A model generated the notes under the pieces. It ran no database searches and was not told the DNA's origin. It was given only the letters and a program-made list of their open reading frames with translations. Made by a program: the position numbers and the translations under genes. This document shows, one piece after another, positions 23,780 through 52,005 of a stretch of DNA of 64,000 nt (its first letter is position 1; the number at the start of each line of letters is the position of its first letter). Origin of the DNA: Maribacter polysiphoniae (GTDB lineage: Bacteria > Bacteroidota > Bacteroidia > Flavobacteriales > Flavobacteriaceae); contig NZ_QGGQ01000008.1 of the NCBI RefSeq assembly GCF_003148665.1, positions 64,566 to 128,565 on the forward strand, given 5' to 3'.

Positions 23780-23808
23780 AATCCCGATTTAAAATCGGGA
23801 TTTTTTTT
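23780..23808 (-). terminator. terminator of the Phe/Tyr operon
   Basis: AATCCCGAT (23780-23788) and ATCGGGATT (23794-23802) form a 9-bp stem with a five-base loop, flanked by A- and T-runs. The stop codon of the DAHP synthase gene lies inside the flanking T-run. Confidence 0.88.
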
Positions 23809-24889
23809 AACCTTGCATTATCTTCTCTTGATGATTGATGGATTCTTGGTGAATGGCTTTAAACATTCTCAGTATAAACTCCTCACTCAATCCTTTTGAC
23901 TCCCCTTCCAAAATCATACTTCCCAAAATCGAGTTCCACCGATTACTTTGAAGGATGGCAACATTCTTTTGCTTCTTAAGGCTCCCTATTCCATCTGAAA
24001 TCTTCATTCGTTTCCCAAGCATATCGATCAATTGGTTATCGATGATATCAATTTGCGTTCTAAGGTTACTCAGCTTGCTATTGAATTCCGCTTCCTCATC
24101 GGTTTCTTTACGTATACGTAAATCCTTCATGATCTGTACCAAGGCCTTTGGAGTCACTTGCTGCGCAGCATCACTCCATGCATTATCGGGATCGAAATGG
24201 GTCTCGACGATAAGTCCGTCAAAATTAAGATCCAATGCGGTTTGTGAAACATCAAAGATCATATCCCTATTACCTGTAATATGCGAAGGATCATTGATCA
24301 ATGGCAAATCCGGGAATTTCGTCTGTAGTTCAATGGCCAACTGCCATTCAGGAATATTTCTATATTTGGATTTTTCATAGGTAGAAAAGCCCCTATGGAT
24401 CACACCCAACTTTTTGATATTCTTACTATATAATCGTTCCACAGCCCCTAACCATAAAGACAAGTCTGGGTTGACTGGGTTTTTGACCAATACAATCTTA
24501 TCAGTACCCTCAAGGGCATCTGCAATTTCCTGTACTATAAATGGACTTACCGTTGAACGTGCTCCAATCCATAATAAATCAATATCATGTTCCAAGGCCA
24601 ATTCCACATGGGCTTTATTGGCAACCTCGGTAGCTGTCTTCAATCCTGTTTCTGCCTTTACCCGCTGTAACCACTTAAGACCCAATGCCCCAACACCCTC
24701 AAAGTTGCCAGGTCGTGTTCTTGGTTTCCAAATACCGGCCCTAAAGTAGTTTACGTCGGTATCCTTAAGTTCGTGGGCTATTTTCAAGACTTGCTCTTCG
24801 GTCTCTGCGCTACATGGTCCTGCAATTACCAAAGGATGATCTAGTCCCAAATCATCCAACCATGTTCTCATTTCTTTTGAATTCTCCAT
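23807..24889 (-). CDS. bifunctional DAHP synthase / chorismate mutase
   Basis: Fusion of 3-deoxy-7-phosphoheptulonate synthase (first step of the shikimate pathway; residues about 1-255) and AroQ-type chorismate mutase (about 265-360). The synthase part carries VIAGPCSAET, RAGIWKPRTRPGNFEGVG, WIGARSTVSPF, KNPVNPD and DPSHITGNRD. The mutase helix bundle shows LRTQIDIIDNQLIDMLGKRMKISDGIG. The mutase probably makes prephenate for the neighbouring dehydratase and dehydrogenase and may give allosteric feedback to the synthase. Last gene of the four-gene Phe/Tyr operon; 13 bp separate it from tyrA. Confidence 0.94.
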   Translation of the reverse strand: MENSKEMRTWLDDLGLDHPLVIAGPCSAETEEQVLKIAHELKDTDVNYFRAGIWKPRTRPGNFEGVGALGLKWLQRVKAETGLKTATEVANKAHVELALEHDIDLLWIGARSTVSPFIVQEIADALEGTDKIVLVKNPVNPDLSLWLGAVERLYSKNIKKLGVIHRGFSTYEKSKYRNIPEWQLAIELQTKFPDLPLINDPSHITGNRDMIFDVSQTALDLNFDGLIVETHFDPDNAWSDAAQQVTPKALVQIMKDLRIRKETDEEAEFNSKLSNLRTQIDIIDNQLIDMLGKRMKISDGIGSLKKQKNVAILQSNRWNSILGSMILEGESKGLSEEFILRMFKAIHQESINHQEKIMQG

Positions 24890-24902: not shown

Positions 24903-25760
24903 TTATTTGTTCAAAGGTATTCCTTTTAATATTTCCTTTATTTTATTCGTATTGTTCATTTCATCGTAAATGCCTTCATAATTATCATTGAGCAGCAATT
25001 GTTTAAAGGCTTCAAGATTCTCAATGTACTCTTCCAAACTCTCAACCACATTCTCCTTATTCTGCTCAAAAATGGGTGCCCACATCGCTGGTGAACTTTT
25101 CGCCAATCGCACGGTACTTTCAAATCCACTTCCCGCCATGTCAAAGATATCGCGTTCATTTCTTTCCTTATCGATTACAGTCTTACCTAACATAAAAGAA
25201 CTGATGTGTGATAAATGTGATACATAGGCAATATGCTTATCATGTGCCTCAGGATTCATATATCTTATTCTCATGCCAAGCTCCTGAAAAAGTCCCAAGG
25301 CCTTTTCCTGTAATTTAAAAGCTGTTTTTTCAATCTCACAGATAATATTGGTCTTCCCTTGAAACAAATGATCGATAGCTGCGGAAGGACCTGAAAACTC
25401 AGTACCAGCAATAGGGTGGCAAGCTAAGAAATTTCTTCGTTTTGGATGATCCTCCAAAATTTTGCACAACGTCGCTTTTGTTGAACCCGCATCGAAAACC
25501 ACGCAATCATCATCCACGTGATCCAATATCCTTGGCAGCTCGGTCAGCATTGCATTTACCGGGATACCCACTATCACAACGTCTGCCAAATGCAAATCAT
25601 CAAAGTCCGCTATAACATCAATCAATTCAAGGGCCATTGCTTCCTCTAAATGGGAGGCATTGGCATCTATACCATGAATCTTGACTTCGGGGACCAGCCG
25701 TTTAATATCCTTGGCCATACTACCCCCGATCAAACCTACACCAATTACAAATACATTCAT
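24903..25760 (-). CDS. tyrA: prephenate dehydrogenase
   Basis: Oxidative decarboxylation of prephenate to 4-hydroxyphenylpyruvate for tyrosine. The 285-residue protein opens with the Rossmann nucleotide motif VIGVGLIGGSMAKDI (residues 5-19). The signature DAGSTKATLC, HPIAGTEFSGPSAA and HDKHIAYVSHLSHISSFML follow, the last carrying the catalytic His region. There is no chorismate mutase or ACT domain, consistent with the mutase being fused to the DAHP synthase next door. The gene lies 1 bp after the aminotransferase and 13 bp before the DAHP synthase gene. Confidence 0.94.
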   Translation of the reverse strand: MNVFVIGVGLIGGSMAKDIKRLVPEVKIHGIDANASHLEEAMALELIDVIADFDDLHLADVVIVGIPVNAMLTELPRILDHVDDDCVVFDAGSTKATLCKILEDHPKRRNFLACHPIAGTEFSGPSAAIDHLFQGKTNIICEIEKTAFKLQEKALGLFQELGMRIRYMNPEAHDKHIAYVSHLSHISSFMLGKTVIDKERNERDIFDMAGSGFESTVRLAKSSPAMWAPIFEQNKENVVESLEEYIENLEAFKQLLLNDNYEGIYDEMNNTNKIKEILKGIPLNK

Positions 25761-25761
25761 C

Positions 25762-26907
25762 TTAAAACCTTTCTAGTGCTTCTTTTATTTTTTCCTCTTT
25801 CACACAAAGTGAAAATCGAATATAACCCTCACCATTGCTTCCGAAAATCGTACCTGGAGCGATGAATATATTTTTTTCATACAGTACATTATCAATAAAA
25901 TCCTCAGAATCGGAAGCACCATGTGGCAATTTTGCCCAAATGAACATCCCGACCGCATTTTTGTCATAGGTACAATTCAATTTATCAGCCAATTGCAACA
26001 TCAACGCCTTCCTTTTTTGATATACCTTATCCAAAGCCCTATACCAATCCTCACTACTTTTTAAAGCTGCGATGGCTCCTTTTTGAATACCGTAGAACAT
26101 GCCTGAGTCCATATTACTCTTTACCTTTAGAATGGCATTGATATGTTCGGCATTACCCAATACCATACCTACGCGCCAACCGGCCATATTAAAGGTCTTG
26201 CTTAAAGAATTCAATTCCAAGGCTACTTCCTTTGCCCCGTCGATAGCCAAAATACTTGAAGGCTCTTCATTAAGCACAAAACTATATGGATTGTCATTCA
26301 CAAGAAGGATTCCATTGTCCTTTGCAAACTTGATCAATCGTTTCAATTGGTCTTGATTGCCCGAGGCCCCAGTGGGCATATGAGGATAACTGACCCACAT
26401 TAATTTCACTTTGGACAGATCTTGTTGCTGTAAGGTCTCCAAATCGGGGAACCAACCATTTTCCGCATTAAGATCATACTGCTTGGGTACACCTCCGACC
26501 AATTTGGTAACCGAGGTATAGGTAGGATACCCTGGATTAGGTATTAAAACCTCATCACCAGCATTCAAAAAGGCCATACTAATATGCATGATTCCTTCCT
26601 TGGAACCCATAAGGGGCAATATCTCGGTGTTTGGATCTGCAATTACCTTGAATTTCGATGCATAAAAATCCGCAATCGCCTGGCGTAATGCCGGCAACCC
26701 CTGATAACTCTGATACTGATGCGCCCCTGCCTCTGTCACTGAATCCTTTATGGCCGTTAGAACATCCTCGGAGGGGGCTAGATCCGGACTGCCTATTCCC
26801 ATGTTTATTATAGGTTTGCCCTCAGCGATCAACCCACGGACCTCCCTAAGTTTTTTAGAGAAGTAGTACTCCTCCACCGTTTGTAATCTATCCGCAGTAC
26901 GAATCAT
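25762..26907 (-). CDS. PLP-dependent aminotransferase, probably aromatic
   Basis: A 381-residue class I/II aminotransferase. The PLP lysine sits in SLSKTFNMAGWRVGM (Lys about 234); other blocks are GIGSPDLAP, YQSYQGLPALRQAI, PLMGSKEGIMH and NPGYPTYTS. By context it transaminates phenylpyruvate and 4-hydroxyphenylpyruvate to phenylalanine and tyrosine. The sequence alone would also fit LL-diaminopimelate or aspartate aminotransferases, so the substrate is inferred. Its ATG overlaps the stop of prephenate dehydratase by 4 bp (ATGA), so the two are translationally coupled. Confidence 0.9.
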   Translation of the reverse strand: MIRTADRLQTVEEYYFSKKLREVRGLIAEGKPIINMGIGSPDLAPSEDVLTAIKDSVTEAGAHQYQSYQGLPALRQAIADFYASKFKVIADPNTEILPLMGSKEGIMHISMAFLNAGDEVLIPNPGYPTYTSVTKLVGGVPKQYDLNAENGWFPDLETLQQQDLSKVKLMWVSYPHMPTGASGNQDQLKRLIKFAKDNGILLVNDNPYSFVLNEEPSSILAIDGAKEVALELNSLSKTFNMAGWRVGMVLGNAEHINAILKVKSNMDSGMFYGIQKGAIAALKSSEDWYRALDKVYQKRKALMLQLADKLNCTYDKNAVGMFIWAKLPHGASDSEDFIDNVLYEKNIFIAPGTIFGSNGEGYIRFSLCVKEEKIKEALERF

Positions 26908-27731
26908 ATTCTAGCATTTTTATATTCCCCCAAAACCCTAAAGTCATCTGACATGATGTCTAAAAGCGCTTTGGCCTTTGCAAAATTATTATATTCATCG
27001 AAGGTCACATCAACAAAAAAAGCATATTTCCATGGGGTTTCAATAATGGGCAATGACTGTATCTTGGTTAAATTCATATTACAATCGCTCATCACATTCA
27101 ACACTGTCGCGAGACTTCCTCTTTTATGATCGGTCACAAAACGGACCGAAGCCTTGTTTATTTCAGTTATAGGCCATTCCTTATTGGTGGTTTTTACAAT
27201 AATAAATCGGGTCGAATTATTCTTTATCGTTTGAATATCCGAAGCTATGATTTCCAAATCATATAAATCGGCTGCCACTTTAGGGGCAATGGCCGCAACA
27301 CCCTTTAAGTGATTATCATGAATTTGCTTGGCGGTCTCCGCGGTATCAACATCCTCGACCACTTTTATATGGGGATGTGTCTTTAAAAACTCACGACATT
27401 GCAGGAGGGCCATTGGATGGGACCTAACTTCATGGATATCCTCAATCGATTGTCCCTTCAGGGCCATAAGATTATGGTGGATGTTTAAATAATGCTCCCC
27501 TATTATATGTAATTTCTTATCATTAACAAGTGCGTAATTGGGGATGATTGACCCCGCAATCGAATTTTCAATTGCCATTATCCCTTTATCCGCTGTTGCA
27601 TCAAGCAGGCAGTCCACCAAGCCATGAAAGGACATACACTCTACCAAATCAACCTCTTCCTTAAAACAATCCAGGGCCACCTGATGATGGTTAGACCCCT
27701 TGATTCCCTGTATGGCTATCTTTAAACCCAT
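26904..27731 (-). CDS. pheA: prephenate dehydratase
   Basis: Converts prephenate to phenylpyruvate. The 275-residue protein has the periplasmic-binding-fold catalytic part (about 1-185) with GIMAIENSIAGSI and the NNSTRFIIV motif containing the catalytic Thr. An ACT regulatory domain follows (about 195-270, SVRFVTDHKRGSLATVLNVM then IQSLPI), expected to bind phenylalanine. First structural gene of the operon, it lies behind the Phe/Tyr-rich leader and attenuator at 27767-27893. The N-terminal GIKGSNHHQVA departs from the usual GPxGTFSHxAA but keeps the same fold position. Confidence 0.94.
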   Translation of the reverse strand: MGLKIAIQGIKGSNHHQVALDCFKEEVDLVECMSFHGLVDCLLDATADKGIMAIENSIAGSIIPNYALVNDKKLHIIGEHYLNIHHNLMALKGQSIEDIHEVRSHPMALLQCREFLKTHPHIKVVEDVDTAETAKQIHDNHLKGVAAIAPKVAADLYDLEIIASDIQTIKNNSTRFIIVKTTNKEWPITEINKASVRFVTDHKRGSLATVLNVMSDCNMNLTKIQSLPIIETPWKYAFFVDVTFDEYNNFAKAKALLDIMSDDFRVLGEYKNARI

Positions 27732-27766: not shown

Positions 27767-27794
27767 AAAAAAAGTCCCGTTTTTCACGGGACTT
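27767..27794 (-). terminator. attenuator terminator of the Phe/Tyr operon
   Basis: On the minus strand AAGTCCCGT (27794-27786), loop GAAAA, ACGGGACTT (27780-27772), then TTTTTG: a perfect 9-bp GC-rich stem with U-run. It lies between the leader peptide and pheA, 36 bp before the pheA start. Its 5' arm can pair instead with the end of the leader peptide coding sequence (27836-27829). Confidence 0.88.
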
Positions 27795-27821
27795 AATGTT
27801 ATATTTAATGTTTGCAATACA

Positions 27822-27893
27822 CTACAACAGTCCCATCTCCCTCTTATAAAAGAAGAAAAAATAAAAACCGTTAAAGAAATACTGCTTTGTCAT
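27822..27893 (-). CDS. Phe/Tyr leader peptide (attenuation)
   Basis: A 23-codon reading frame, ATG at 27893 to TAG at 27822, too short for normal gene calling. Its first 16 residues read MTKQYFFNGFYFFFFY; in all it has seven Phe and three Tyr among 23 residues, then KREMGLL. Codons 20-22 contain AUGGGACU, complementary over 8 bp (one G-U) to AGUCCCGU, the 5' arm of the terminator at 27767-27794. A ribosome stalled at the Phe/Tyr run would leave AUGGGACU free to form the antiterminator. A ribosome reaching the stop would cover it and let the terminator form. This is the classic logic of pheL/trpL leaders. Translation of the frame itself is inferred. Confidence 0.85.
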   Translation of the reverse strand: MTKQYFFNGFYFFFFYKREMGLL

Positions 27894-27894
27894 T

Positions 27895-28016
27895 GTCTTG
27901 TAAATCTTCGACTAAGGTAATTATTAAATTTAAAAAACAAATTCAAAGTCATTCTTTTTTTGATTTTTTCTATAAAAACATATTTAATTGCATATTTTTC
28001 TTTAAAACAGCCTTTT
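27895..28016 (-). promoter_or_regulatory. AT-rich region expected to hold the pheA operon promoter
   Basis: Very AT-rich spacer between the serine hydrolase stop and the leader peptide. No exact TAnnTTTG is present on the minus strand; the nearest is TGACTTTG at 27951-27944 with no well-placed TTG. The promoter must lie here or just upstream, but I cannot place it. Confidence 0.3.
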
Positions 28017-29102
28017 TTATTGGGAATCAGCAAGGAAAATATCGACCGATGCATCCAAGACATCCTGAATTCGAGGGTTTGTACAATTCGTCAGAATGGA
28101 AAAAACCATTTGTTCATTAGGGTAAATAAAGAGATTGGAGTAACCACCCACGCCATTCCCTATATGACCAAAATAGGGTCTTCCCTTTTTATCCTCACTA
28201 ACCTGCCAACCCAAACCATAATAGGTAGCCTTTCCATTTATCTTTTCAGTGGTAATAAATTGGGAAAATACAGCATCGTGCATAATCTCCTTCTTCAGAT
28301 ACGCCTGTCCGAACTTGGCTATATCATCGGAAGTTGACAAATAACCACCGCCAGCCAGTTTATAGGTGTTGTTTACAGGCATCGCTTTATAAAACCCTGA
28401 TTTCCTTCTTGAATAGAAGGTAGCCAAATGGTCGTTATTGCCATCTGTCATTTCAATTGCCCCAGATTCGGAACCCTCGCCAAAAGTATGGGCTAACCCA
28501 AAAGGCTTCAGTACCTTTTCTTGAACATAGTCCCCAAAGGGTACCCCACTGGCTTCTTGCATGGCCAAAGAAACCAACACCCAATCATAACTATTGTAAT
28601 GATAATCAGTACCTGGTTTGAAAAGCAGGTCGTCATTCTTGAATATCCGTAGGCTATCCTTTATGGAGAACGGTTCGTTCAAACCGTATTCCTTTCCTTT
28701 ATACCCACGAATACCCGCTGTATGGCTTGCCAATTGTCGTATGGTAAAATCATATTCCTTCCTTGGAAAATAAGGAACATAGTCATATATCGAAGCATCC
28801 AAGTCAATAACCCCATCCTTAACCATTTGGACCAAGGCGGTCGCTGCAATATTCTTGGAAACACTGGCAATCCTGAAGATAGTTCGTTTCGGATCTACCT
28901 TTATCCGTTTTTCGACATCCGCATAACCATATCCTTTTTGAAATATAACCCCTCCTTTTTTTAGTACCGTGATGGCAAGCCCTGGGATCTTTTTTTCAAT
29001 TATGAGGCCGTTGAGTAGGCCATCCACCCCTGATAATCCTTCCAAGGTACGATGTGGTTGCTTTTCACTTTTGGAAGTGAATAGGTCTTTCAGATATGTC
29101 AT
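28017..29102 (-). CDS. serine hydrolase, class C beta-lactamase family
   Basis: A 361-residue protein of the beta-lactamase/penicillin-binding (AmpC, D-alanyl carboxypeptidase B, esterase EstB) superfamily. The nucleophile motif is SVSK (S-x-x-K, in FRIASVSKNIAATALVQM, near residue 82). The second motif is the Tyr-containing YHYNSYDWV and the third HIG (FGHIGNGVGGYS). It has neither an obvious signal peptide nor a membrane anchor, so it may be cytoplasmic, and resistance is not implied. The frame opens at a GTG (29138), but the ATG at 29102 is preferred. It converges on nothing and precedes the leader of the aromatic operon. Confidence 0.85.
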   Translation of the reverse strand: MTYLKDLFTSKSEKQPHRTLEGLSGVDGLLNGLIIEKKIPGLAITVLKKGGVIFQKGYGYADVEKRIKVDPKRTIFRIASVSKNIAATALVQMVKDGVIDLDASIYDYVPYFPRKEYDFTIRQLASHTAGIRGYKGKEYGLNEPFSIKDSLRIFKNDDLLFKPGTDYHYNSYDWVLVSLAMQEASGVPFGDYVQEKVLKPFGLAHTFGEGSESGAIEMTDGNNDHLATFYSRRKSGFYKAMPVNNTYKLAGGGYLSTSDDIAKFGQAYLKKEIMHDAVFSQFITTEKINGKATYYGLGWQVSEDKKGRPYFGHIGNGVGGYSNLFIYPNEQMVFSILTNCTNPRIQDVLDASVDIFLADSQ

Positions 29103-29234
29103 AAAGGATTTCAATACCGTACAATTTTTTATGCCCACTGATAAAGAATAGAGGGGCCCGATTACCCCTGTCCTAAAAAGACCGGGATTCTTTGTCGTTC
29201 ATACACGTAGGTAGAAAAACAAATTCCTTTTAAT

Positions 29235-36443: not shown

Positions 36444-36554
36444 TATTACAAAAAAACACATTGCAAAGCCTGGCCATTTACAGGTATGAAAATGGTAACG
36501 CACTACTTTTATTTATCGATCAAGGAAAGGTGTAAGACAGATGTCTTTTTCAGG

Positions 36555-36669
36555 GTTATCTTTCACGCCTTAGCTGTGATAGAATGTAGCACCTTCTTAC
36601 CCCGTTATGCAGTGGGGAAAGGGTTGCCAAGGTTTCATTGGGTCTAGTCCCTCCGCCTTTCTTGATAAC
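36555..36669 (-). ncRNA. SAM-I (S-box) riboswitch upstream of metH
   Basis: The minus strand opens with GTTATCAAGAAAGGCGGAGG and continues through the S-box core (GACC, ATGAAACC, TTGGCAACC, then AAGGTGCTACATTC), closing with GATAAC (36560-36555), which pairs with GTTATC (36669-36664) as P1. P4 is TCAC...GTGA. All conserved SAM-I segments are in order. It controls the split metH and probably metF. Ligand is inferred from the aptamer class. Confidence 0.92.
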
Positions 36670-36696
36670 TTTATCAACATAGTAAAGAACTCGTTG

Positions 36697-50210: not shown

Positions 50211-50335
50211 GATTTTAATTTGTTTATGTTGTTAATAAAATAAATCAAAACACTAGTCCCCTAATCGCGATTAGCAACTAGGAATAATCAAAAAGTTAAA
50301 AAGAAAGAGACAATTACAAAAATGTAATTCGTTTC

Positions 50336-50470
50336 GTTATCTATTCTTGCCTAAATTAAAGGATACTGAAGACATTCAGCCTCAAGATAGAATTTAGCAC
50401 CTTCTTTGCACAGGAGGCAAAGGGTTGCTAAGGCTTCACAGGGTCTATTCCCTCCACCTTTCTTGATAAC
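50336..50470 (-). ncRNA. SAM-I (S-box) riboswitch upstream of metY
   Basis: The minus strand opens GTTATCAAGAAAGGTGGAGG and continues with the core segments GACC, GTGAAGCC, TTAGCAACC and AAGGTGCTAAATTC. P1 closes with GATAAC (50341-50336). P4 is longer than usual: CTATCTTG pairs with CAAGAATAG around an inner stem, GCTGAA/TTCAGT. It shares almost all conserved positions with the copy before metH. Confidence 0.9.
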
Positions 50471-50500
50471 AATTCAATATGTGTTTGAACTTTTGAACGG

Positions 50501-51805: not shown

Positions 51806-51883
51806 TTTTTCAAAAATAAATAGGAGGAAATAAAAAAAAGATTGCGAAAAGGGCGAATATGCTGAATGAAATCAGCTATCACT

Positions 51884-51994
51884 GCTTTAGCATTTTTACA
51901 ATACCGAACTTGTTCAGTATCCAGTTCCCTTAAGAACTAGGCCCTAACGTGAATTTAAGGCTACGAGGTTGCAATCAGTCAAATCTTTCCTCTT
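51884..51994 (-). ncRNA. candidate SAM-II-type riboswitch upstream of metK, with extended loop
   Basis: On the minus strand GAGG (P1), GATTTGACTGATTGCAA, CCTC (P1 partner), then after about 70 bases AAAAATGCTAAAGC. GATTT, TTGCAA and the 3' TGCTAAA correspond to the conserved core of SAM-II, and the gene behind it is metK. The part between is far longer than in known SAM-II and forms two extra hairpins (AGTTC/GAACT and ATACTGAAC/GTTCGGTAT). Class assignment is by eye and tentative. Confidence 0.55.
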
Positions 51995-52005
51995 AAGATT
52001 GGGGA

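Follow-up and report, generated by a model that had tools for sequence, protein, structure and literature searches.

Upstream of pheA in the marine bacterium Maribacter polysiphoniae lies a short open reading frame rich in Phe and Tyr codons, followed by a predicted terminator whose 5' arm can also pair with the end of the frame. We regard it as very probable, from sequence comparison and folding models, that this element is a ribosome-mediated transcription attenuator of the pheA/tyrA operon that senses the charging of tRNA with Phe and Tyr. Its coding frame, aromatic codons, terminator, antiterminator and shared strand all find support in comparison and folding. Systems of the pheL, trpL and hisL kind combine a leader with a run of codons, a terminator, an antiterminator that shares a strand with it, a 1:2 hairpin and cognate genes downstream; in E. 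coli, the leader peptide encoded by pheL is rich in Phe, and an antiterminator and a terminator that overlap each other precede pheA. The features of the Maribacter element and its operon, in coordinates of the window (the whole stretch of 64,000 nucleotides that was analysed), are as follows.

27912 to 27919, minus strand: -7 promoter box TACCTTAG, of the form TAnnTTnG (consensus TAnnTTTG), 18 nt before the ATG
27894 to 27907, minus strand: predicted 14-nt 5' UTR, with the predicted transcription start an A at 27907
27822 to 27893, minus strand: leader peptide open reading frame, 23 codons plus TAG, with seven Phe and three Tyr
27814 to 27885, minus strand: 1:2 hairpin of the minimum free energy (MFE) structure, with arms 27885-27850 and 27845-27814
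27829 to 27836, minus strand: region 2, AUGGGACU, the predicted antiterminator 5' strand, within the last leader codons
27786 to 27793, minus strand: region 3, AGUCCCGU, the predicted antiterminator 3' strand and part of the terminator 5' arm
27772 to 27794, minus strand: predicted intrinsic terminator hairpin, 9 bp and perfect, with loop GAAAA
27767 to 27771, minus strand: U-run of the terminator
26904 to 27731, minus strand: pheA, prephenate dehydratase (PF00800, E 1.3e-57)
25762 to 26907, minus strand: class I/II aminotransferase (PF00155, E 7.5e-59), with a 4-nt overlap with pheA
24903 to 25760, minus strand: tyrA, prephenate dehydrogenase (PF02153 and PF20463)
23807 to 24889, minus strand: DAHP synthase-chorismate mutase fusion (PF00793 and PF01817)

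The leader, read from 27893 to 27822 on the minus strand, translates as MTKQYFFNGFYFFFFYKREMGLL followed by a stop, and the 23 codons with seven Phe and three Tyr claimed by the original prediction were the same on re-reading. The perfect 9-bp terminator, AAGTCCCGT-gaaaa-ACGGGACTT at 27794-27772 with its T-run onward to 27767, was likewise found in the claimed position and pairing before pheA; its function is predicted from the hairpin and T-run. The 8-bp pairing proposed between the leader end and the terminator 5' arm, AUGGGACU (27836-27829) with AGUCCCGU (27793-27786), also stands, one of its pairs being U-G. Two features were absent from the original prediction, namely the -7 box before the leader and the 1:2 hairpin, which comprises almost the entire leader ORF. 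The MFE of the 181-nt region is -43.9 kcal/mol, whereas shuffles average -28.96 (z -4.55; 0 of 200 shuffles were as low). Leader and terminator lie upstream of the pheA start at 27731, and the operon genes, all on the minus strand, overlap or are separated by short gaps. The leader precedes genes for its cognate amino acids, that is, the dehydratase, aminotransferase, dehydrogenase and DAHP synthase-chorismate mutase. The ACT match of pheA is weak (21.1 bits, under the cut-off of 27).

From at least 571 confirmed relatives of the window pheA locus we took the best 80, and the leader is present in all of these. A simple best-hit rule found it in 78, and the leaders of loci L064 and L067 were recognised by frame reading. 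The nearest named relatives of the window pheA are Maribacter species, with 98% identity to M. aquimaris. The leader has 23 codons in 72 relatives, 22 in seven and 25 in one, and in 80/80 a script search upstream of pheA gave a hairpin with a T-rich run after it. Since the loci share descent, counts of this kind are not independent.

The signals for starting transcription and translation conform to what has been described in Flavobacterium. The consensus of the -7 box, TAnnTTTG, is given in passages of PMC9723704 and PMC6847099, and 76 of the 80 relatives have a TAnnTTnG box in the 75 nt that precede the leader ATG, 49 of them at a distance of exactly 18 nt. A section of PMC6847099 places the last G of the -7 element at -5, and we predict the start at 27907 and the 14-nt 5' UTR because of that position. 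Positive determinants of initiation in F. johnsoniae, according to the same section, are A at -3, -6, -12 and -13; the window leader has A at -3, -6 and -12, and A at -3 is found in 65 of the 80 relatives. The original prediction had remarked that no Shine-Dalgarno sequence is visible upstream of the leader, and this is confirmed in the window sequence. Since Bacteroidia ribosomes do not recognise Shine-Dalgarno sequences, as stated in the part of PMC9976891 cited here, such an absence is ordinary, and the match of promoter box and start context to known Flavobacterium rules explains it.

Evidence that the leader is a coding frame comes from an alignment, A2, of the window with 71 of the 72 loci that have 23-codon leaders (71 rows distinct), in which the window replaces the near-identical L002 and the eight loci of other lengths are omitted. 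The leader frame contains stops in none of the 71 distinct leaders, while the other two frames are closed in 66 and 63 of them. Within the aromatic block, defined as leader codons 5-16, the fraction of single-base codon differences that are synonymous is 0.64 in the leader frame against 0.09 and 0.34 in the others. From this coding conservation we infer that the leader is translated. Loss of the frame or of its aromatic codons in relatives had been named as the observation that would speak against the original prediction; frame and aromatic codons are kept in the relatives' pheA upstream regions. We also applied a leader-plus-terminator test, which asks for at least six aromatic residues in 14 and a terminator no more than 75 nt from the stop, with the loop limited to 8 nt in the detector. 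All 80 close relatives pass.

It could be argued that the terminator serves the upstream gene (28017-29138), which is on the same strand and whose frame ends 123 nt before the leader, and that an AT-rich spacer happens by chance to read as a Phe/Tyr frame, since U-rich DNA easily yields Phe and Tyr codons. We consider this explanation extremely improbable. Of 78 loci tested, 13 have a homologous upstream gene and all have the leader, so that by comparison of loci the leader goes with pheA rather than with its upstream neighbour; moreover, the -7 box stands before the leader in nearly all relatives, and the other frames are mostly closed while substitutions in the leader frame are mostly synonymous. 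Chance would also have to produce a pass of the leader-plus-terminator test, and this happened in only 1 of 1680 dinucleotide-shuffled pheA upstream regions. Among real control windows it happened in 11/2074 (his, trp, ilv and thr loci, some overlapping) and in 0/576 (L128-L151, loci described below).

The amino acids that the attenuator would sense can be judged from the composition of the leaders. Each carries 5-9 Phe and 1-4 Tyr, both residues occur in 71/71 distinct A2 leaders, and this makes joint sensing of Phe and Tyr plausible. A variant within attenuation is that the leader would respond to Phe alone, or to the three aromatic amino acids together, with the Tyr codons tolerated; Phe is indeed the commonest residue, and one Trp is present in 37 of the 71 leaders. 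We think this variant possible though rather unlikely, as every leader keeps at least one Tyr and 69 of the 71 keep at least two, the pairwise differences in codons 5-16 exchange one aromatic residue for another in 3488 cases against 2424 others, and the operon contains tyrA.

The layout is not confined to close relatives. At E<=1e-4 a profile of the Maribacter-like leader (A1) matched 64 of the 299 family genomes and, among 296 phylum genomes, five, all of family-level group f1; one f4 genome matched at 2.2e-4. Of the 58 profile-match loci (L094-L151), L127 and the 33 with the strongest matches (E<=1.5e-10) adjoin pheA, and the weaker 24 (L128-L151) do not. Reading a non-match to this profile as absence of a leader proved wrong, as most such pheA upstream regions carry aromatic leaders. 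We therefore give results of the leader-plus-terminator test for three sets of pheA loci. The first consisted of 30 family genomes, 28 without a profile match and two (G562 and G497) with a weak one; pheA was present in 27, and 24 of these regions pass. The second consisted of 30 genomes of other groups with chance-level profile matches (E 0.04-0.94), 27 of them with pheA, and 10 pass, which are 10 of 13 from the same class (one from the same order) and none of 14 from the same phylum outside the class. The third was drawn from 119 genomes of the class, which we take to be the Bacteroidia (GTDB), by a search with PF00800; 33 matched, 30 loci were taken and 19 pass, seven genomes of this set being also in the first or second. 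Positives fall into 12 family-level groups (f1, f3, f4, f5, f8, f9, f51, f52, f55, f61, f74 and f92).

These positives were selected blind to the pairing of regions 2 and 3. When identical copies are removed from the 53 positives, 48 distinct ones are left, the window's own genome among them. Compared with 300 shuffles each, 40 of the 48 show better pairing between leader end and terminator 5' arm at p<=0.05, and 33 do so at p<=0.01; in the other eight the pairing is no better than in shuffles at 0.05. The combined Fisher p of 7e-46 is overstated because the loci are related. Nine of the 12 groups are supported at p<=0.05, and the positives of f9, f61 and f74 are without pairing support (the sole f9 positive, L311, has p 0.16). 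Within the class, pheA regions that lack such a leader and failed the test are those of f2 (four loci, three genomes), f60 (four loci), f10 (one), two f8 genomes, L243 (f1) and L307 (f68). Three further loci counted as misses are leader-like by eye: L303 and L306 (f11) have very dense aromatic leaders (12/14 and 10/14) before a terminator whose loop is 13 nt long, and L305 (f63) is under the aromatic threshold. At L258, in an f8 genome, pheA directly follows a frame read as aroA. The 400 nt upstream of pheA at L243 (genome G023) hold tandem near-identical units with ATCCCGCC/GGCGGGAT-type hairpins, and no leader.

Compensatory changes, which the original prediction had proposed to look for in both stems, are present in terminator and antiterminator. 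In the terminator helix 99.5% of the A2 cells are paired, against at most 57.6% when the partner is slid by 1-3 columns. Four of its pairs show two-sided changes, a count reached by 3 of 500 column shuffles; further pair types are not in excess (177 of 500 shuffles reach the value). For the antiterminator helix the paired share is 93.8%, and sliding by 1-3 columns brings it to 50.9% or less. It too has four pairs with two-sided changes (reached by 2 of 500 column shuffles); its outermost pair is broken in 24 of 71 rows. On these figures the predicted 1:2 hairpin is the weakest of the three helices, with 79.1% of cells paired versus at most 58.6% when slid, and with no excess over shuffles in two-sided pairs (reached by 104/500) or in pair types (401/500). 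The strand common to terminator and antiterminator corresponds to A2 columns 103-110. In its central C columns, 106-108, 12 cells are not C, and both partners pair in all 12: the terminator partner has switched to A in 11 cases and forms U-G in one, and the antiterminator partner has switched to A in five and forms G-U in seven. L052, L053 and L070 have intact RNA pairing and carry Glu or Arg in place of a conserved Gly, which we read as the possible cost of preserving that pairing.

The same observations bear on whether the nascent chain itself, and not a hungry codon, would arrest the ribosome. Peptide conservation in the Maribacter-like group, where the consensus of 32 aligned leaders (31 of the 80 relatives and the window) is MTKQYFxNGFYFYFFFKRGxGLL, is what such an arrest peptide would predict. 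However, the N-G and G-L-L codons themselves take part in RNA pairing, and the three loci with Glu or Arg alter the peptide and keep the pairing. In other families the peptide changes while the layout stays, with C-terminal ends as different as NEALYV, SRECFC and VVFAKA. Arrest by the peptide is thus very unlikely in our judgement, and stalling at codons for scarce amino acids is the preferred reading.

Folding of partial transcripts is consistent with such a switch. A ribosome stalled near codon 12 was represented by folding the window sequence between nt 50 of the leader and the last nucleotide of region 3, and this piece adopts the antiterminator (-14.6 kcal/mol). With a stall as late as codon 16 there is a 4-bp antiterminator remnant only (-6.1 kcal/mol), with the ribosome at the stop codon the terminator remains, and the full-length RNA without a ribosome folds into 1:2 hairpin and terminator. 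The piece preceding region 4 forms at least six antiterminator pairs in 80/80 relatives. Once region 4 is present and region 2 free, the terminator is still the more stable structure in the window and 63 of the 80 relatives, and not in the other 17. With the terminator as the more stable end state, antitermination would have to win by forming first, and this state is compatible with a decision by the order of folding.

We infer the transcript start, the stalling, the coupling of ribosome and polymerase, the order of folding and the sensing of both amino acids, and the proposed course of events is as follows. The transcript would begin about 14 nt upstream of the leader AUG. If Phe-tRNA and Tyr-tRNA are both charged, the ribosome would reach the UAG and cover region 2, region 3 would pair with region 4, and RNA polymerase would terminate before pheA. 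If Phe or Tyr is scarce, the ribosome would stall in codons 5-16, opening the 1:2 hairpin and freeing region 2, which could then pair with region 3 ahead of the synthesis of region 4 and so allow read-through into an operon predicted to make both Phe and Tyr. Without a ribosome, region 2 would be held in the 1:2 hairpin and the terminator would form.

Sister operons also have leaders with cognate codons. Before hisG, found in 11 of 12 genus genomes, a His leader of the form M(K/R)NxNT(H/Y)HH is present at all 11 loci (own copy L162, G000:C12; others L152-L161), with HHH in 10 and YHH in one. All six hisG regions inspected have a terminator. For the own-genome copy no Rfam family scored at threshold, and its terminator arm is paired in the fold with the end of the leader. 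Before trpE a WWW leader starts from ATG at 10 of 12 genus loci and from GTG at L166, and L170 is too short. The own-genome trpE element (L165) is Bacteroid-trp, RF01692, with 69.7 bits against a gathering score of 49. In six regions (L165, L163, L166-L168 and L174) a TATATTTG box ends 5 nt before the trpE leader start codon, so that an almost leaderless leader mRNA is predicted.

It is difficult to see what, other than attenuation, would have given separate operons leaders with codons of their own. These cognate leaders weigh against the idea that the pheA element is a structured RNA sensing something else, such as a riboswitch-like or protein-bound terminator switch with an incidental ORF. 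The strong and conserved alternative structures would suit such an RNA, but not the coding conservation of the leader, nor an aromatic content that is kept in other families despite divergence of peptide and RNA. Rfam was searched with the window at gathering level and with five loci at E<=1; neither search placed the element in a family at threshold, and the former gave no T-box or riboswitch match at the element. We give a switch of this kind little credence and retain the attenuator as the explanation. Neither NCBIfam nor Pfam gave a match at E<=1 to any of five peptides, of which four were Phe/Tyr leaders and one was the thrA frame described next.

Upstream of thrA (L222-L230) a conserved 30-codon frame ending ..TTPLG lies 74-79 nt before the gene in eight of nine stretches, L227 being cut short. 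With Thr near its end the frame is reminiscent of thrL. A search for a terminator by eye found none evident in L222-L230, and the frame was therefore left out of our count of leaders. At 11 ilvD loci (L183-L193) there is no conserved ATG leader rich in Leu, Ile or Val, and for that reason we do not claim attenuation of the ilvD operon. Upstream of ilvD in L183-L187 and L192, where no leader peptide is obvious, variants of TATTGAATATGGTA and TTGGATTTAGAGC are among the conserved blocks of non-coding DNA; these are perhaps binding sites.

The Maribacter pheA leader is ordinary in principle and partly foreseen in print. It is like E. coli pheL (Phe_leader, RF01859) in having a Phe-rich leader and an overlapping antiterminator and terminator before pheA, but it scores only 30 bits against a gathering score of 55 for that family, its leader is also Tyr-rich and without a Shine-Dalgarno sequence, and its operon holds tyrA and the DAHP synthase-chorismate mutase. 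Bacteroid-trp is likewise a peptide-leader RNA of Bacteroidetes, there before Trp genes, from which the pheA element differs in amino acid, peptide and RNA; RF01692 gave no match to it in the window or in L001. Bacteroid-trp has been on record since 2010 (in the passages cited of PMC2864571) and, in those of PMC6414381, it stands before the trp operon of F. psychrophilum. A 2021 study of Flavobacterium psychrophilum (PMC9723704) reports, in the sections cited, conserved 5' elements before pheA and hisG that occur also in other Flavobacteriaceae and have no Rfam hits, and it speaks of 'strong clues' for leader-peptide attenuation upstream of amino-acid operons. Its pheA element, likened to ours by description and not by sequence, is probably of the same family; unlike the present data, the cited sections of that paper are without sequence, covariation or spread past Flavobacteriaceae. 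Excerpts of PMC7366714 describe sORFs of B. thetaiotaomicron as 'reminiscent of leader peptides'. Leader-peptide systems of Firmicutes hisS/hisZ are described in parts of PMC2965389, whose authors state there that they knew of none earlier outside Proteobacteria and Actinobacteria. These systems also have leader peptides with cognate codons outside those two phyla, whereas the Maribacter element is in another phylum and before other genes. Among open-licence papers searched by title and abstract, no further relevant literature on leader peptides or attenuation in Bacteroidota was found. The remark in the original prediction that the mechanism is little studied in Bacteroidota is therefore fair, but the field is not empty, as Bacteroid-trp is in Rfam and the pheA 5' element in the cited part of PMC9723704. 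What is new, as far as literature searches show, is the anatomy of the sequence, the three-way compensation and the class-wide spread.

Whether Bacteroidia keep an old, shared set of attenuators that respond to tRNA charging (Phe/Tyr, His, Trp and perhaps Thr/Ile), with very short 5' UTRs and no Shine-Dalgarno sequence, is to our mind an evenly balanced question. If they do, the first ribosome would trail RNA polymerase closely on such leaders, and coupled attenuation would be independent of Shine-Dalgarno initiation. The pheA element, a sequence-defined candidate attenuator outside Rfam families at threshold and with a layout found in 12 family-level groups of one class, would explain the control of aromatic amino-acid synthesis in Bacteroidia. 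Its value would be that of a class-wide, testable case of coupled attenuation without a Shine-Dalgarno sequence, and it may serve as a natural reporter of whether ribosome and polymerase are coupled where ribosomes ignore that sequence.

Elsewhere in the window, apart from the pheA element, three riboswitches were matched at the Rfam gathering level, two SAM-I and one SAM-II (36553-36671, 50334-50472 and 51877-51998, minus strand), with two classes within 1.7 kb. With gene names assigned by eye, the SAM-I riboswitches lie before a methionine-synthase-like frame and a frame for a PLP enzyme of the sulfhydrylase/cystathionine type, and the SAM-II riboswitch lies before a SAM synthetase-like frame.
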